Assembly (NCBI RefSeq): GCF_020164495.1
Contig: NZ_JAIQYZ010000001.1
Location: forward strand, 248,001-312,000
DNA: 64,000 bases
Direction: 5' to 3'
Source: Psychroflexus lacisalsi
Lineage (GTDB): Bacteria; Bacteroidota; Bacteroidia; Flavobacteriales; Flavobacteriaceae
This document shows positions 8,049 to 14,328 of the stretch, in pieces (positions within the stretch are counted from its first letter, which is position 1; each line of letters starts with the position of its first letter). The position numbers and the translations under genes are program-made. The notes below the pieces were generated by a model. The model was given only the letters and a program-made list of their open reading frames with translations, had not been told where the DNA came from and did no database searches.

Positions 8049-9398
8049 ATGAAAATCCTGTTAACTCTAGTCCTTGCTTTAATCATGTCCATTAGCTTGC
8101 AAGCTCAGGATTTTGCTGTTCTGTCTCAAAAAAAACAATCTGAAGTGATTGACCAATGGCTAGGTGAGCGACTGGAAACGGTCCTTCCAAAAGTGATGGA
8201 TCGAGCAGGTATAGACATGTGGCTGGTTATTTCCAGGGAATATAATGAAGATCCTATCATTAAAACCCTATTGCCAAGTACCTGGTTAGCAGCGAGACGT
8301 AGAACCATGTTGCTGATGTTTAAGCCCAAGTCTAGTAATGAGGTGGAAACCATCGCTGTGGCCAGGTATAATGTGGGAGAACACTTCAAAAAAGCATGGG
8401 ACCCTGAAAAGCAACCTGACCAGTGGAAGCGATTGGTAGAATTGATAGCAGAGAGAAATCCGAATAAAATCGGCATCAATACCTCTGAAGATTTTGGTCA
8501 TGCCGATGGGTTGAATCACACAGAATACGAATTGCTTTTAGAGTACTTGCCAAAATCAGATCATAAAAAATTAGTGTCGGCTGAAGATTTGGCGGTGGGT
8601 TGGTTAGAAACCAGAACCACTTCAGAACTGGCGACTTACAGACATATCCAAAGCATTGCGCATGACATTATTCAGGAAGGTTTATCAGAACAAGTGATCA
8701 CTCCTGGGGTAACAAAAACTACAGATGTGGTGTGGTGGTATAGAGACAGGATAAAAGATTTGGGAATAGAAACCTGGTTTCACCCCACTGTCGATATCCA
8801 AAGGGTGAGCAATGAAAGCAAGGAGCATTTAAGAACATTTGATAACAATCCAGACCCCGAAGTTATTCTGCCGGGTGATGTCTTGCATATGGACTTTGGG
8901 ATTACTTATTTAAGACTAAACACAGATACTCAGGAATTAGCCTATGTCTTAAAGCCAGGTGAGAAGGAGGTTCCGCAGTATTTGGTGGATGCTTTAGTTG
9001 TTGGAAACCGTTTACAGGATATTTTATCGACCAATTTTAAAACTGGACGAACTGGTAACGAGATTTTGAAGGAGGCTAGAACACAAATGAAGTCTGAAGA
9101 CATCAAGGGAACGATTTATACGCATCCCATGGGTTATCATGGACATGCCGCAGGACCAACCATCGGCATGTGGGACAACCAGGGAGATGTGCCCGGCTCT
9201 GGAGATTATCCGCTATATCCAAATACGGTTTATGCGATTGAACTCAATGCTGAAGTTTATCTTGAAGAGTGGCAAAAGCCCTTCAGAGTCATGCTGGAAG
9301 AAGGGGCTTATTTTGATGGTGAAAAAGTGATCTACTTAAATGGCAGACAAAAGGAATTTTTAACCATTCCTAGACAGAAATCTTACTTAAAAGATTAA
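8049..9398 (+). CDS. Secreted M24-family metallopeptidase (Xaa-Pro aminopeptidase-like)
   Basis: A 449-residue protein with an N-terminal signal peptide (MKILLTLVLALIMSISLQAQ). A creatinase-like N-terminal domain is followed by an M24 pita-bread domain. The metal-binding set can be traced as HMDFG (first Asp), TDTQ about ten residues on (second Asp), GYHGHAAGPTIG (His), AIELNAEV (Glu) and MLEEGAYF (last Glu). M24 enzymes with this layout remove N-terminal residues before proline, but some family members are not aminopeptidases and the substrate is not certain. It is preceded by ~230 nt with the clpX terminator and no strong promoter match. The aromatic operon leader starts only 74 nt downstream with no clear terminator between. 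Confidence 0.85.
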   Translation: MKILLTLVLALIMSISLQAQDFAVLSQKKQSEVIDQWLGERLETVLPKVMDRAGIDMWLVISREYNEDPIIKTLLPSTWLAARRRTMLLMFKPKSSNEVETIAVARYNVGEHFKKAWDPEKQPDQWKRLVELIAERNPNKIGINTSEDFGHADGLNHTEYELLLEYLPKSDHKKLVSAEDLAVGWLETRTTSELATYRHIQSIAHDIIQEGLSEQVITPGVTKTTDVVWWYRDRIKDLGIETWFHPTVDIQRVSNESKEHLRTFDNNPDPEVILPGDVLHMDFGITYLRLNTDTQELAYVLKPGEKEVPQYLVDALVVGNRLQDILSTNFKTGRTGNEILKEARTQMKSEDIKGTIYTHPMGYHGHAAGPTIGMWDNQGDVPGSGDYPLYPNTVYAIELNAEVYLEEWQKPFRVMLEEGAYFDGEKVIYLNGRQKEFLTIPRQKSYLKD

Positions 9399-9419
9399 TT
9401 TTTTGAATTTTATTTAGGA

Positions 9420-9447
9420 TTGGACTTGTGTATTCAAAATAAATTTT
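9420..9447 (+). promoter_or_regulatory. Candidate promoter of the Phe/Tyr operon leader
   Basis: TTG at 9420-9422, 17-nt gap, TAAATTTT at 9440-9447 (seven of the eight consensus positions; final G is T). Transcription from here would begin near 9453 and give a ~20-nt 5' leader before the leader-peptide ATG at 9473. Read-through from the M24 gene is an alternative. Confidence 0.45.
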
Positions 9448-9472
9448 AATTTAGTCTCACATTAAAGAACAA

Positions 9473-9535
9473 ATGACAACACGTTTTTATTTTTATTTTA
9501 ACTTTTATTTTGCTGACCCAGCGAAACGAGGTTGA
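9473..9535 (+). CDS. Phe/Tyr-rich attenuation leader peptide
   Basis: A 20-codon frame, ATG at 9473 and TGA at 9533. It encodes MTTRFYFYFNFYFADPAKRG. Codons 5-13 read F-Y-F-Y-F-N-F-Y-F: five Phe and three Tyr in nine codons (9485-9511). It sits directly upstream of a terminator hairpin and the pheA/tyrA operon, the architecture of the enterobacterial pheL-type leader. Ribosome stalling on Phe or Tyr codons when charged tRNA is scarce would expose the antiterminator segment inside the last codons (9523-9531). When the peptide is completed, the ribosome at the stop covers that segment. The function is inferred from sequence; no homologue search was possible. Confidence 0.8.
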   Translation: MTTRFYFYFNFYFADPAKRG

Positions 9536-9590
9536 TATGAAATAAATTCATTATTAATAGATAAAGCCTCGTTTCATACGGGGCTTTTTT
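9523..9590 (+). promoter_or_regulatory. Transcription attenuator: mutually exclusive antiterminator and terminator
   Basis: Terminator: AAAGCCTCGT (9563-9572) pairs with ACGGGGCTTT (9578-9587) over a 10-bp stem with one T.G wobble and a 5-nt loop, ending in a T6 run at 9585-9590. Antiterminator: GAAACGAGG (9523-9531), overlapping the last codons of the leader peptide, is perfectly complementary to CCTCGTTTC (9567-9575), which occupies the left arm and loop of the terminator. The two structures cannot coexist. The terminator ends 6 nt before the pheA start codon at 9596, so termination here would silence the whole operon. Confidence 0.8.
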
Positions 9591-9595
9591 AGTTT

Positions 9596-10420
9596 ATGAG
9601 AAAAAAAATAGCCATGCAAGGTATCAAAGGATCCAACCATTATAAAGCACTCACCGAGCTTTTTGATGAAGACGAGGTTGAAGCTGTAGAATGCAATACA
9701 TTTCAGGGACTTATCAACTCTCTTGTGTCTGGAGCGTCTGAAAAAGCAGTAATGGCTATAGAAAATTCTATAGCGGGAAGCATTCTGCCTAATTACAGAC
9801 TTATTTTGGATCATAAACTGCAGGTGACAGCAGAACACTACTTGAACATTAGTCACAATTTAGTTGCCTTACCAGGTCAGACTATAGAAGATTTGGTGAA
9901 GGTGAAATCTCATCAAATGGCACTCCATCAGTGTAGCAATTTCTTTACAGAACAAAGACATATTCATCTTATTGAAGATGTGGATACAGCGCTTCCAGCA
10001 CAAATTATAGCGCAGCAGCAAATCTTTGGAGTAGGAGCACTGGTCCCAAAAGGAACAGCAGAACTATTTAATTTAAAGGTAATCGCTGAAGATGTTCAGA
10101 ACAATAGTTTAAATGAAACTCGATTTGTAGTTCTTGAAAAACAGGGCCATACAAATCCTGATGTGGATACGGCTACCCTTCAGTTTGAAATTGCTCACGA
10201 GTCTGGAAGTCTTGCTAAAGTTCTAAATACAATGGCTGGATTTGAATTGAATTTATCCAAAATTCAAAGCATTCCTATCCCTAATGATATATGGAAATAT
10301 GCCTTTATTGTGGATGTGAGTTTTTCTAATCCCGTTCACTTTCAAAAGGCATTTTCAGAAATTTCAAAAATCAGTATTAACCCGACCTGTATTGGTCAAT
10401 ATAAAAGTGGAAAGTCATGA
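9596..10420 (+). CDS. pheA: Prephenate dehydratase with ACT domain
   Basis: A 274-residue monofunctional enzyme converting prephenate to phenylpyruvate in phenylalanine synthesis. The catalytic part (1-180) contains AVMAIENSIAGS (about 51-62) and the TRF motif (175-177), both hallmarks of the family. The C-terminal ACT regulatory domain (about 193-270) keeps the Gly-Ser-Leu turn (SGSLAKVL), but the usual ESRP phenylalanine-binding motif reads QSIP (224-227). It is the first gene of the operon and starts 6 nt after the attenuator T-run. Its stop overlaps the next start by 4 nt (ATGA). Confidence 0.93.
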   Translation: MRKKIAMQGIKGSNHYKALTELFDEDEVEAVECNTFQGLINSLVSGASEKAVMAIENSIAGSILPNYRLILDHKLQVTAEHYLNISHNLVALPGQTIEDLVKVKSHQMALHQCSNFFTEQRHIHLIEDVDTALPAQIIAQQQIFGVGALVPKGTAELFNLKVIAEDVQNNSLNETRFVVLEKQGHTNPDVDTATLQFEIAHESGSLAKVLNTMAGFELNLSKIQSIPIPNDIWKYAFIVDVSFSNPVHFQKAFSEISKISINPTCIGQYKSGKS

Positions 10421-11577
10421 TCTCAGTATCTAAAAGACTTCAGGAAACAAAAGAATACTACTTCAGCAAAAAGTTAAGGGAGGTCGCTCAGCTTAAAAAA
10501 CAGGGCAGGCCTATTATCAATTTAGGTATAGGAAGTCCAGACTTGGCTCCGCCAAAAGAAGTAGTAGAAGAGTTGATGAAAGCAACTCAGGCTCCTGGAG
10601 CTTATCAGTATCAGGCTTACAAAGGCCTGGACGAATTGAGGGAAGCCATGTCTGGATTTTATCAAACTCATTATGGAGTTGAGGTGAATACAGAAACTCA
10701 AGTCTTGCCACTGATGGGTTCCAAAGAAGGAATTGCTCTCATTTCTATGGCTTTCCTCAACGAAGGCGACCAGGTCTTGGTGCCAAATCCCGGCTATCCC
10801 ACCTACCAGGCTGCGACCAAATTGCTGAACGCCGAACTTGTTTCTTATAATTTAACCGAAGACAACTTCTGGCATCCAGATATAGAAGAACTCCATAAAA
10901 TGGATCTCTCAAAGGTGAAACTGATGTGGATCAATTATCCTAACATGCCGACGGGTCAGCCCGCAGATCATGAAAAGCTTCAGGAATTGATTCGTTTTGC
11001 GAAAGCCAACGATATCCTATTAGTCAACGACAATCCGTACAGCATGGTTTTGACGGATGAAAAATTTTCGATTTTTCAATTGGAAGGTGCTGAAGAGGTG
11101 TGTTTAGAATTGAATTCTTTGAGCAAATCTTTTAATCTGGCTGGTTTTCGGGTAGGATTTCTGGTAGGTAATGCTGAATTTATTTCAGCGGTCTTAAAAG
11201 TGAAAAGCAATATGGACAGCGGAATGTTTTTTCCTATTCAAAAAGCTGCAACTAAAGCTTTGAAACTTGACTTAGCTTGGTTTGAATCCCAAAATGATAT
11301 TTATAAAAAACGTCGGGCACTGATCTGGGAGATGTGTAAAGCTTTGGATTTGGAAATCAATCCTTCAGCTGTCGGGCTTTTTGTCTGGGCTAAAATTAAT
11401 TCCAATCAAACAGCAGAAGAACTGGCGGATGAGCTGCTTTACAATCGCAATTTGTTTGTCACTCCTGGAACCGTTTTTGGAACGAACGGATCTAATTATC
11501 TCCGCTTTTCTTTATGTGTTACAGTTGAAGATTTAAAAAGTTGTAAAGAACGCATCCTAAAGCCAAAAGCCGTATGA
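10417..11577 (+). CDS. Class I/II PLP-dependent aminotransferase (aromatic or prephenate aminotransferase of the operon)
   Basis: A 386-residue fold-type I aminotransferase. The PLP-lysine is Lys237 in NSLSKSFNLAGFRVG, the cofactor-contacting Asn/Tyr lies around NYPNMPTG (173-180) and NDNPYSM (204-210), and a C-terminal substrate-carboxylate Arg is in NYLRFSLC. Sequence alone does not separate aspartate, alanine or aromatic specificity. Its place between pheA and tyrA, with 4-nt overlaps on both sides, makes transamination of phenylpyruvate/4-hydroxyphenylpyruvate, or prephenate to arogenate, the likely role. Confidence 0.88.
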   Translation: MISVSKRLQETKEYYFSKKLREVAQLKKQGRPIINLGIGSPDLAPPKEVVEELMKATQAPGAYQYQAYKGLDELREAMSGFYQTHYGVEVNTETQVLPLMGSKEGIALISMAFLNEGDQVLVPNPGYPTYQAATKLLNAELVSYNLTEDNFWHPDIEELHKMDLSKVKLMWINYPNMPTGQPADHEKLQELIRFAKANDILLVNDNPYSMVLTDEKFSIFQLEGAEEVCLELNSLSKSFNLAGFRVGFLVGNAEFISAVLKVKSNMDSGMFFPIQKAATKALKLDLAWFESQNDIYKKRRALIWEMCKALDLEINPSAVGLFVWAKINSNQTAEELADELLYNRNLFVTPGTVFGTNGSNYLRFSLCVTVEDLKSCKERILKPKAV

Positions 11578-12443
11578 AAGTAGCAAGTATAGGTCTAGGT
11601 TTGATAGGAGGTTCCTTTGCATTATCTCTGAAAAAGAATTTTGATGAAATACAACTTTATGGGATGGATAAGAATCCGAAACATCTTCAAAAAGCCCTTC
11701 AGCTGAATATTATAGATAAAGCTTTGAGTGATGAAGATGTAATTGAAATGGACTTAATAGTAGTGAGTATCCCTGTAGATAAAGCAAATTCAGTGATTCA
11801 GGATGTTCTGGACAAGGTTCATCCAAAAGCTTTGGTGATGGACATGGGATCGACCAAAGGTAAATTATGTAAAGCCATTGCGGAACACCCAAAACGCGAT
11901 CAATTTCTAGCTGCGCATCCTATTGCTGGAACTGAGTTTTCAGGTCCTGAAGCGGCGTTTAGTTTGCTTTTTGAAAAGAAAACGATGATTTTTTGTGATG
12001 TTGAAGCTTCACGTCCAGAGCTTTTAGATATGGCCTTATCGCTAATTGCGCCCTTGGAAATGAGCATCAAATACATGGGAGCACAAGATCACGACAAGCA
12101 CTTGGCTTATGTATCTCATTTGTCGCACATCAGTTCGTTTATGCTTGGTAAAACTGTACTTCAAGTGGAACAAAACGACAAAACTATTTTTGATTTAGCA
12201 GGTAGTGGATTTGCTTCCACAGTAAGATTAGCTAAATCCAACCCTACCACATGGACAGCGATTTTTAAAGAAAATCAAAATGAAGTGCTTCAGGCTTTGG
12301 AGGAATATATTCAAAATTTAAAAGCATTTCAGAACCAGTTAGAAACTCAGAATTACTCAGAAATACACCAACAGTTGGCAAATGCCAATGAACTCAAACC
12401 TATTTTGAACGGAATATTAAAAAAAGAAAGTCATGGAAATTAA
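11574..12443 (+). CDS. tyrA: Prephenate (or arogenate) dehydrogenase
   Basis: A 289-residue NAD(P)-dependent enzyme of tyrosine synthesis. The N-terminal Rossmann motif is GLGLIGGSFA (7-16). MDMGSTKG (about 90-97) and AAHPIAGTEFSG (about 113-124), including the catalytic His region, are typical of TyrA. The C-terminal half is the all-helical dimerisation domain. No chorismate mutase or ACT domain is attached. It overlaps the aminotransferase by 4 nt and the DAHP synthase gene by 11 nt, consistent with translational coupling. Confidence 0.93.
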   Translation: MKVASIGLGLIGGSFALSLKKNFDEIQLYGMDKNPKHLQKALQLNIIDKALSDEDVIEMDLIVVSIPVDKANSVIQDVLDKVHPKALVMDMGSTKGKLCKAIAEHPKRDQFLAAHPIAGTEFSGPEAAFSLLFEKKTMIFCDVEASRPELLDMALSLIAPLEMSIKYMGAQDHDKHLAYVSHLSHISSFMLGKTVLQVEQNDKTIFDLAGSGFASTVRLAKSNPTTWTAIFKENQNEVLQALEEYIQNLKAFQNQLETQNYSEIHQQLANANELKPILNGILKKESHGN

Positions 12444-13518
12444 TAACACACAAAGAAAATGGTTGGATGCCTTTAATCTTGATCATCCCTTAGTTATAGC
12501 AGGACCTTGCAGTGCAGAAACCGAAGAACAAGTGGTGAAAATCGCTCATCAGCTTAAAGAAACCGATACCAGTGTTATGCGTGCGGGTATCTGGAAACCC
12601 AGAACTCGTCCTGGCAATTTTGAAGGCGTAGGAGCTATTGGTTTAGAATGGCTGAAGACTGCAAAACAGGAAACAGGACTTAAGCTAGCGACCGAAGTTG
12701 CCAACAGAAATCATGTAGAATTAGCCTTAAAAGCGGATATCGATGTGTTGTGGATTGGTGCGCGCAGCACTGTGAGTCCATTTATTGTTCAAGAAATCGC
12801 AGATGCCTTAAAAGGAACCGATAAAACAGTACTGGTCAAAAACCCTGTCAATCCTGACCTGGCATTGTGGCTTGGCGCAGTAGAAAGGATCCATGATGCC
12901 GATATTAAAAACCTAGGCGTTATTCATAGAGGGTTTTCCACTTACGAAAAAACGAAATACCGAAACAATCCGGAATGGCAGATTGCGATTGACTTACAAA
13001 CGGAGTTTCCGGATTTGCCTATTATTTTGGATCCCTCGCATATTGCTGGGCGACGTGATATCATTTTTGATATCTGTCAAACAGGGCTTGATTTGAATTT
13101 TGATGGAATCATGGTAGAAACTCACTTCGATCCAGACAATGCCTGGAGTGATGCTAAGCAGCAAATCACGCCGAAAAATTTAGATCAAATGACGATTGAT
13201 TTGAAAATGAGAAAGGAGTTCACAGAAGCAACAGCTTTTCAGAATAAACTCCAGACCCTAAGAACCCAGATTGATGTGGTAGACCACCAGCTCATTGATC
13301 TTTTAGGGAAACGAATGAAAATCGCAGATGATATCGGTAGGCTTAAAAAGAAAAATAATGTGGCCATTCTTCAGGCCAAACGCTGGAATTTTGTACTGGA
13401 TTCTATGATTGAAGCAGGGGCAGAACATAATTTAAGTGAAGAATTTATCACTAAGATTCTAAAAGCGATTCATGAAGAATCCATCAGCCATCAGCATAAA
13501 ATTATAAGTGAGTATTAA
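12433..13518 (+). CDS. Bifunctional DAHP synthase / chorismate mutase type II
   Basis: A 361-residue fusion. Residues 1-255 are a class I (KDO8P-like) DAHP synthase: IAGPCSAE (about 18-25), MRAGIWKPRTRPG (about 49-61), VKNPVNPD and LDPSHIAGRRD supply phosphate- and metal-binding residues. Residues ~265-350 are an AroQ-type chorismate mutase helix bundle (TQIDVVDHQLIDLLGKRMKIADDIGRLK). The protein thus catalyses the first step of the shikimate pathway and the branch step to prephenate. The C-terminal mutase probably also serves feedback control by prephenate/chorismate, as known in related fused enzymes. With pheA and tyrA it completes the Phe/Tyr branch under one leader. Confidence 0.93.
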   Translation: MEINNTQRKWLDAFNLDHPLVIAGPCSAETEEQVVKIAHQLKETDTSVMRAGIWKPRTRPGNFEGVGAIGLEWLKTAKQETGLKLATEVANRNHVELALKADIDVLWIGARSTVSPFIVQEIADALKGTDKTVLVKNPVNPDLALWLGAVERIHDADIKNLGVIHRGFSTYEKTKYRNNPEWQIAIDLQTEFPDLPIILDPSHIAGRRDIIFDICQTGLDLNFDGIMVETHFDPDNAWSDAKQQITPKNLDQMTIDLKMRKEFTEATAFQNKLQTLRTQIDVVDHQLIDLLGKRMKIADDIGRLKKKNNVAILQAKRWNFVLDSMIEAGAEHNLSEEFITKILKAIHEESISHQHKIISEY

Positions 13519-13866: not shown

Positions 13867-14328
13867 ATGGCAAATACATACACACAATTATACATTCAAT
13901 TTGTGTTTTCCGTTAAGGGTCGTAAAAACATGATTCACGAATCCTTTCGAGAAGAATTGGAAAAGGTGATATGTGGTATTGTGGATAGTTATAAATGTAA
14001 AACCTATGCGGTTTATTGCAATCCAGACCACACGCATATTTTTGTTGGAATGCATCCCGATATCTCTCCCTCTAAACTAATGGAACAGGTCAAATCAGGT
14101 TCATCCAATTGGATAAACGACAAAAATTTTATTTCAAACAAGTTTAATTGGCAAAGGGGTTTTGGGGCGTTCACATATTCTAAATCTCATATTGATAAGG
14201 TCGTGAAATACGTGTTGAATCAACCGCAACATCATAAAAAGCAGTCTTTTAAAGAGGAGTACGTGTTGCTACTAGAAAAATTTGAAGTCGATTATGAGGC
14301 TGGATATTTATTTGAATGGTACGATTAG
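13867..14328 (+). CDS. RAYT: REP-associated tyrosine (IS200-like, Y1) transposase
   Basis: A 153-residue single-domain HUH endonuclease. The metal-binding HUH motif is HTH at 55-57 (CNPDHTHIFVGM), and the nucleophilic tyrosine is most likely Tyr115 in VVKYVLNQPQHH. Length and motif order match the Y1_Tnp family of IS200/IS605 TnpA and domesticated RAYTs. It has no terminal inverted repeats or TnpB partner, but is bracketed by arrays of the same small palindromes, with one inverted copy (14355-14370) just after its stop. That is the usual arrangement for a RAYT acting on its own REP elements. All catalytic residues look intact. Confidence 0.88.
   Translation: MANTYTQLYIQFVFSVKGRKNMIHESFREELEKVICGIVDSYKCKTYAVYCNPDHTHIFVGMHPDISPSKLMEQVKSGSSNWINDKNFISNKFNWQRGFGAFTYSKSHIDKVVKYVLNQPQHHKKQSFKEEYVLLLEKFEVDYEAGYLFEWYD

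Follow-up and report, generated by a model that had tools for sequence, protein, structure and literature searches.

What controls the operon for phenylalanine and tyrosine synthesis in Psychroflexus, and what part is played by the short, strongly aromatic reading frame directly in front of it? The window, by which we mean the whole 64-kb stretch of DNA that was analysed, corresponds to positions 248001-312000 of contig 1 of a 3.04 Mb genome (Psychroflexus), and the features of interest are set out in Table 1. Judged from the sequence and its conservation, the most probable answer, at roughly 0.88, is that the pheA leader acts as a classic ribosome-mediated transcription attenuator, which would sense Phe and Tyr.

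The leader, the operon and the upstream region

The leader ORF begins with ATG at 9473, encodes the 20 residues MTTRFYFYFNFYFADPAKRG and ends on TGA at 9533-9535; the earlier note had described a 20-codon frame with eight aromatic residues in nine codons, and both letters and positions hold. Its second statement, that the frame precedes a U-tracted terminator and a Phe/Tyr operon, is likewise borne out, as an intrinsic terminator lies between the leader and the first gene, and the identities of the operon genes were confirmed by Pfam. All four genes lie on the same strand and neighbours overlap by a few bases, while pheA itself begins 5 nt past the U tract of the terminator. Closely downstream of the operon an IS200-like transposase gene (Y1_Tnp, 94.4 bits) is found at 13867-14328.

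Table 1. Positions of the leader, its RNA elements and the operon in the window.
Feature	Position	Strand	Evidence
Possible -33 promoter element (TTG), 18 nt 5' of the -7 element	9426..9428	+	Candidate, read from sequence
Promoter -7-like element TAATTTAG	9447..9454	+	TTAG[CT] conserved before leader ATG
Leader peptide ORF, MTTRFYFYFNFYFADPAKRG	9473..9535	+	Read from sequence; conserved in relatives
Control codons FYFYFNFYF (5 Phe, 3 Tyr, 1 Asn)	9485..9511	+	Enriched versus shuffles and antisense
Possible protector (1:2-like) hairpin: inner 9508-9515 with 9519-9526, outer 9498-9505 with 9528-9535	9498..9535	+	Predicted -12.7 kcal/mol; overlaps antiterminator arm
Antiterminator left arm (segment 2), within the leader's last codons and stop	9523..9533	+	11 consecutive pairs with 9565-9575
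Segment 3: terminator left arm 9563-9572, of which 9565-9572 plus loop bases 9573-9575 form the antiterminator right arm	9563..9575	+	Pairing, covariation
Intrinsic terminator: stem 9563-9572 with 9578-9587 (10 bp including one G-U), U tract (T at 9585-9590)	9563..9590	+	Sequence, fold, helix covariation over 106 relatives
pheA, prephenate dehydratase	9596..10420	+	PF00800, 156.3 bits
Class I/II aminotransferase	10417..11577	+	PF00155, 220.7 bits
tyrA, prephenate dehydrogenase	11574..12443	+	PF02153 and PF20463
DAHP synthase fused to chorismate mutase (aroF-type)	12433..13518	+	PF00793 and PF01817

What an attenuator calls for, namely a short, translated-looking ORF rich in codons for the products of its operon, is found at the pheA leader, and chance was assessed by scanning ATG frames of 8-60 codons in the 300 nt before pheA. 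In dinucleotide shuffles of this region of the window a score-8 aromatic frame arose in 2 of 3000 cases. Across relatives, 172 of 188 upstream regions were kept (15 duplicate loci and one region containing N, L155, were removed), and at least six Phe/Tyr in nine codons were found in 145 of the 172, compared with 0/172 antisense strands and 30/3440 dinucleotide shuffles, figures that measure enrichment and not independent events, as the loci are related.

Promoters in Bacteroidota take the form TTG...TAnnTTTG. Upstream of the leader, 99 of the 106 leaders from the family carry the motif TTAG[CT] 12-45 nt 5' of the ATG (mode 22 nt; 616/5300 in shuffled sequence), and its conservation argues against a transcription start downstream of 9535, which the earlier note had named as a finding that would speak against its proposal. 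The element in the window, TAATTTAG, resembles TAnnTTTG, which is the -7 box named in the available text of a study of Flavobacterium psychrophilum (PMC9723704), where flavobacteria are also reported to lack Shine-Dalgarno sequences.

Conservation within and beyond the family

A pheA gene was found in 360 of 397 family genomes and in 20 of 27 genus genomes. No pheA match was obtained in the other seven genus genomes (G001, G005, G008, G011, G018, G021, and G022), six of which are at least 99% complete; possible reasons are that Phe synthesis has been lost or that a divergent gene was missed. An aromatic leader (score at least 6) precedes pheA at 110 of 116 family loci, 115 of which are distinct (L060 and L133 are identical); among the remaining six, five (L015, L016, L017, L020, and L021) have an aromatic frame scoring 5, and one (L043) has no aromatic frame upstream of pheA. 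A class-wide search of 395 genomes yielded pheA in 107. Of these, 93 lie outside the family, and the upstream region was read in 56 of the 93, mainly those with the better PheA matches. The leader occurs in 35 of the 56 genomes and in 14 of the 22 family labels sampled, with a duplex score (defined below) of at least 16 in 25 of the 35, and 21 of the 56 are without such a leader, including all seven genomes of one label (f13). Conserved Phe/Tyr codon runs in relatives, the first check that the earlier note had proposed, are therefore found within the family and outside it, in counts that are not independent, as the leaders share descent. In a further label (f17: L134, L147, and L181) all three loci carry before pheA only a shorter motif scoring 4, YFWFY or YFWYY, in short leaders that include Trp (TQTYFWFYP and TQTYFWYYP).

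The core positions of the leader accept both F and Y, with preferences, an interchange that is expected if the codons, and not one exact peptide, matter. In 160 of 161 leaders (the exception is L156) a simple purpose-built finder located a hairpin followed by at least five T, although the conservation of the U tract is partly built into this count, as the finder demands five T. With E up to 0.01, a covariance model built from 106 family leaders found a match in 363 of the 397 genomes of the family, a count that is not independent, since many of these genomes supplied the model; pheA lay directly downstream at all 30 loci taken from the best matches of the model. In the window genome the model scores 76.7 bits at pheA and 40.4 at the next place, and the next matches (L196 and L197), considered as extra copies of the leader, were rejected, as they have no pheA nearby.

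Exclusive pairings and a likely mode of action

The earlier note had pointed to a complementarity between the last codons of the leader and 9567-9575. The pairing of GAAACGAGG (9523-9531) with this stretch is indeed perfect, and two further pairs, 9532-9566 (U-G) and 9533-9565, extend the antiterminator to 11, so that it takes up most of the left arm of the terminator and part of its loop. To compare leaders, a simple purpose-built duplex score was used, for which the 34 nt that follow the last core aromatic codon were matched without gaps to the left arm plus loop of the terminator and the best duplex was taken; 140 of the 160 leaders with a terminator were retained after removal of 17 duplicate loci and identical pairs. 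The mean score of segment 2 with its own segment 3 is 18.9, versus 14.3 (sd 0.25) when segments are swapped between loci and 11.7 (sd 0.17) when they are shuffled, and the own duplex equals or exceeds the foreign median in 134 of the 140 leaders. The gain is seen within the family (18.65 vs 14.79, sd 0.31, n=106), outside it (19.65 vs 14.45, sd 0.53, n=34) and in the genus of the window (22 vs 18.31, sd 0.92, n=15), while 8 of 140 leaders score below 14. Segments 2, 3 and 4 vary in concert across many leaders, for example CGGGACT/AGTCCCG/CGGGACT, CGAGAC/GTCTCG/CGAGAC, CAGGGCTTT/AAAGTCCTG/CAGGGCTTT and TCGGAAC/GTTCCGA/TCGGAAC, and the triplets are weak in a few (e.g., L058, L165, L180, and L186).

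Covariation was also counted in an alignment of the 106 family leaders (A1); the 34 non-family leaders are absent from it and entered the pairing, triplet and codon-choice analyses. Of the cells in the terminator helix, 94.6% are paired; six of its nine pairs change on both sides, and its 53 two-sided cells compare with 13.3 +/- 2.8 in shuffles, whereas versions of the helix slid along the alignment drop to 18.5-63.2% paired. For the antiterminator helix in the majority register, 77.8% of cells are paired (51.9% and 59.7% when slid by one), a figure lowered because MAFFT sets a subset of sequences one column off in segment 2, as judged by eye. Its two-sided cells number 40 versus 17.6 +/- 3.3 in shuffles. 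However, 41 (-3) and 37 (+1) are counted in slid versions, and 74 of 500 shuffles reach as many two-sided pairs; the two-sided count alone is therefore not decisive for this helix. An antiterminator that excludes the terminator and changes in a compensatory manner is thus found by the own-versus-foreign test, which is independent of A1, by the triplets and by the fold, with mixed counts in A1, where a subset is out of register. The second check of the earlier note, for compensatory changes in both stems, accordingly gave a positive answer through the own-versus-foreign gain, the covariation of the terminator and the triplets.

Where the duplex score reaches 14 or more, in 132 of the 140 leaders, segment 2 begins a median of 10 nt (IQR 9-11, range 6-17) past the last core aromatic codon and ends a median of 4 nt (IQR 4-10, range -15 to 22) ahead of the stop codon, a spacing that suits ribosome masking. 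With the usual footprint of a ribosome, segment 2 would be barely exposed while the ribosome waits at the last control codon and would be covered once it stands at the stop codon. Folding the window RNA as it grows, with ribosome edges that were assumed, gave the antiterminator at lengths up to 9578 if the ribosome was stalled or missing, and did not give it if the ribosome was placed at the stop codon. In the full-length RNA the terminator is part of the minimum-energy fold in all four ribosome cases, and control must therefore be kinetic.

The proposed course of events is as follows. Transcription would begin shortly 5' of 9473, and translation of the leader would follow immediately. In a shortage of charged tRNA-Phe or tRNA-Tyr, the ribosome would stall within the control codons and leave segment 2 free to pair with segment 3 ahead of the synthesis of the right arm of the terminator, whereupon the RNA polymerase would read on into the operon. 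If both charged tRNAs are ample, the ribosome would reach the stop codon at the end of segment 2 and mask it, and the terminator would then end transcription. Formed between segment 2 and the last control codons, a further hairpin may act in this scheme as a protector or as a pause hairpin.

This last hairpin is predicted from the fold of the window, in which the last control codons pair with the stretch right after them, and it could also serve neither of these two functions. In 140 leaders the choice of codons leans toward the fold when compared with synonymous shuffles (mean z -0.70, negative in 106 of 140). Within the genus, support is modest: in an alignment (A2) of 14 of the 15 genus leaders, which leaves out L019 as being of a different type and comprises 13 distinct sequences, the inner stem is paired in 94.2% of cells and its covariation is weak, with the sole two-sided pair at the top position (G-C, A-U or U-A in 7/13, unpaired in 6/13). 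Shuffles reach the observed scores in 42-44 of 500 cases, and 44 of 500 reach the percentage paired. In folds of the growing RNA with no ribosome the antiterminator is preferred over the protector up to 9578. Directly 3' of the antiterminator arm, a G (A1 column 109, position 9534 in the window) is invariant in 90% or more of leaders although its codon context varies by clade, and a candidate idea is that it possibly marks an RNA polymerase pause site.

Other explanations for the frame and its hairpins can be weighed against attenuation by ribosome stalling. An aromatic peptide that arrests the ribosome in response to a free ligand, and not to uncharged tRNA, as in TnaC, would account for the strong conservation and the hydrophobic nature of the frame, and known arrest peptides likewise use leaders before terminators. 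However, no residue is fixed in the core, whose positions are filled by F or Y, and in part by W, with preferences. The stretch that follows the core (ADPAKRG, KRETGLL, SKRNEALYV, and KSIRDCC) varies by clade together with the RNA pairing, unlike an arrest motif, and comparison of the sequences revealed no conserved nascent-peptide residues at the stall site; such an arrest is very improbable. Less probable again is translational control, in which the hairpin would hide the start of pheA and the antiterminator would free it. The end of the terminator stem 8 nt 5' of the pheA ATG in the window would allow this, but the distance between terminator and pheA ranges from 8 to 239 nt (median 29, n=140), so that hiding of the start is not conserved, and a hairpin followed by a run of T, found in nearly all leaders by the finder described above, speaks for termination.

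The least probable account, and a strongly disfavoured one, dispenses with regulation altogether and assumes a constitutive terminator and promoter with a small frame that arose by chance in AT-rich DNA. TTT and TAT codons come easily in such DNA and U-tracted hairpins are common, but the shuffle and antisense controls, the preference of each leader for its own pairing partner and the conservation outside the family all contradict it.

Amino acids that may be sensed, and relation to known leaders

The earlier note had matched the mixed Phe and Tyr codons to the products of the operon, and this needs a correction, as codons for Trp are added in many relatives. Leaders with a Trp codon at or before the last core aromatic codon number 66 of 140, namely 61 of the 106 family leaders and 5 of the 34 from elsewhere, and Trp makes up 67 of 2068 residues in this part versus 8 of 1048 beyond it. 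Aromatic amino acids in general may therefore be the signal within the family. Among 80 family genomes, a leader Trp codon occurs in none of the eight with three DAHP_synth_1 (PF00793) genes and in 48 of the 72 others, 71 of which have two such genes and one of which has one, and 24 of the 72 are without a Trp codon. The Fisher p of 0.00036 treats genomes as independent, while the eight three-gene genomes all belong to one clade, that of the window, and are effectively one event; the 80 were taken from 93 genomes first listed, and the 13 left out hold both kinds of leader.

The DAHP_synth_1 genes were given identities in the window genome alone, where they comprise the DAHP synthase of the operon, a 359-residue DAHP synthase-like gene (L191, C1:936364-937074) and a 272-residue gene, which we take to be a KDO8P synthase. 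A scan for small frames found no aromatic leader upstream of the second DAHP synthase-like gene. The operon seems to hold the only DAHP synthase in most of the family genomes that were checked, and hence also to feed tryptophan. Tentatively, and with doubt outweighing confidence, one leader may within the family read all three aromatic amino acids, with a codon mix that tracks the end products depending on the operon, superimposed on an older Phe/Tyr attenuator that is present in much of the class. If the Trp codon is functional, a single attenuator would integrate three aromatic amino acids, and its codon content would record gene duplications in the pathway.

Leader-peptide attenuation is textbook knowledge in enterobacteria, and in Bacteroidota the papers that could be searched offer scattered hints only. 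Candidate attenuators in Bacteroidetes/Chlorobi were reportedly described by Vitreschak and colleagues in 2004. In Bacteroides thetaiotaomicron, frames reminiscent of leader peptides were noted (PMC7366714), and a count of leader genes near structural genes includes Bacteroidetes, with pheA not among them in the available text (PMC4833913, which cites Lopatovskaya et al., 2010). Closest to the present case, the available text of the 2021 study of F. psychrophilum speaks of "strong clues" for leader-peptide attenuation before amino-acid operons and of a conserved structured 5' element upstream of pheA, which occurs in other Flavobacteriaceae genera too and has no Rfam hit (PMC9723704). This is probably the same element as the leader of the window, matched by description and not by sequence, and the section on it (section 19) gives no peptide, pairing model or conservation beyond the family (PMC9723704). 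The earlier note knew of no such leader described in Bacteroidota; in part this has to be withdrawn, given these clues, the pheA element and a Bacteroid-trp leader in the same genome, and in part it stands, as no description of the peptide, the pairings, the class-wide spread or the Trp codons was found in the searchable literature, to which most subscription papers do not belong, so that earlier predictions may exist.

Bacteroid-trp (RF01692), the Bacteroidete tryptophan leader, was listed by Weinberg et al. (2010; PMC2864571). A Trp leader of this kind, MLNNQNNSWWWSLLRQTS, lies before trpE in the window genome (L193, C12 near 472400; 1318-1374 of the reverse complement), passes the cut-off of the family with 57.2 bits and has its own terminator-like hairpin. 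In the 64-kb window, neither RF01692 (gathering cut-off 49 bits) nor the Rfam T-box gave a match at the gathering cut-off, and positions 9380-9620 gave none to either at E up to 5. Bacteroid-trp is a leader class of Bacteroidota that shares this genome with the pheA leader, and the two differ in codons, operon and RNA sequence. A His-rich leader, MKKHNLHHHLSISLNAVVM, is found before hisG in the same genome (L192, C1 near 1393100, 1209-1268), followed by a hairpin-like sequence and a T run. A mapped, deeply conserved leader with such His and Trp siblings lends itself to testing the coupling of transcription and translation in flavobacteria.

Membership of the leader in RF01859 (Phe_leader), the best sub-threshold match here with 34.2 bits against a cut-off of 55, was considered and rejected. 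In the family, none of 199 genomes passes this cut-off; sub-threshold matches occur in 189 of the 199, at about 33-42 bits among those listed, and all those compared with the place of pheA (G185, G144, G181, G147, and G160) lie elsewhere.

In enterobacteria, pheL combines a Phe-rich leader with a terminator and mutually exclusive hairpins. The leader of the window shares these traits and the position before pheA with pheL and RF01859, and would work in a like manner. In contrast to pheL, it mixes in Tyr, and relatives often add Trp; its segment 2 lies within the last codons of the leader, and its operon is a four-gene Phe/Tyr unit. One leader with codons for several end products is also known from ilvGMEDA and thrABC, where the codons are branched-chain or Thr/Ile, while those of the pheA leader are aromatic. 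The mechanism is already known, and the pheA leader is very probably a further example of it, apart from RF01859, whose cut-off it fails.
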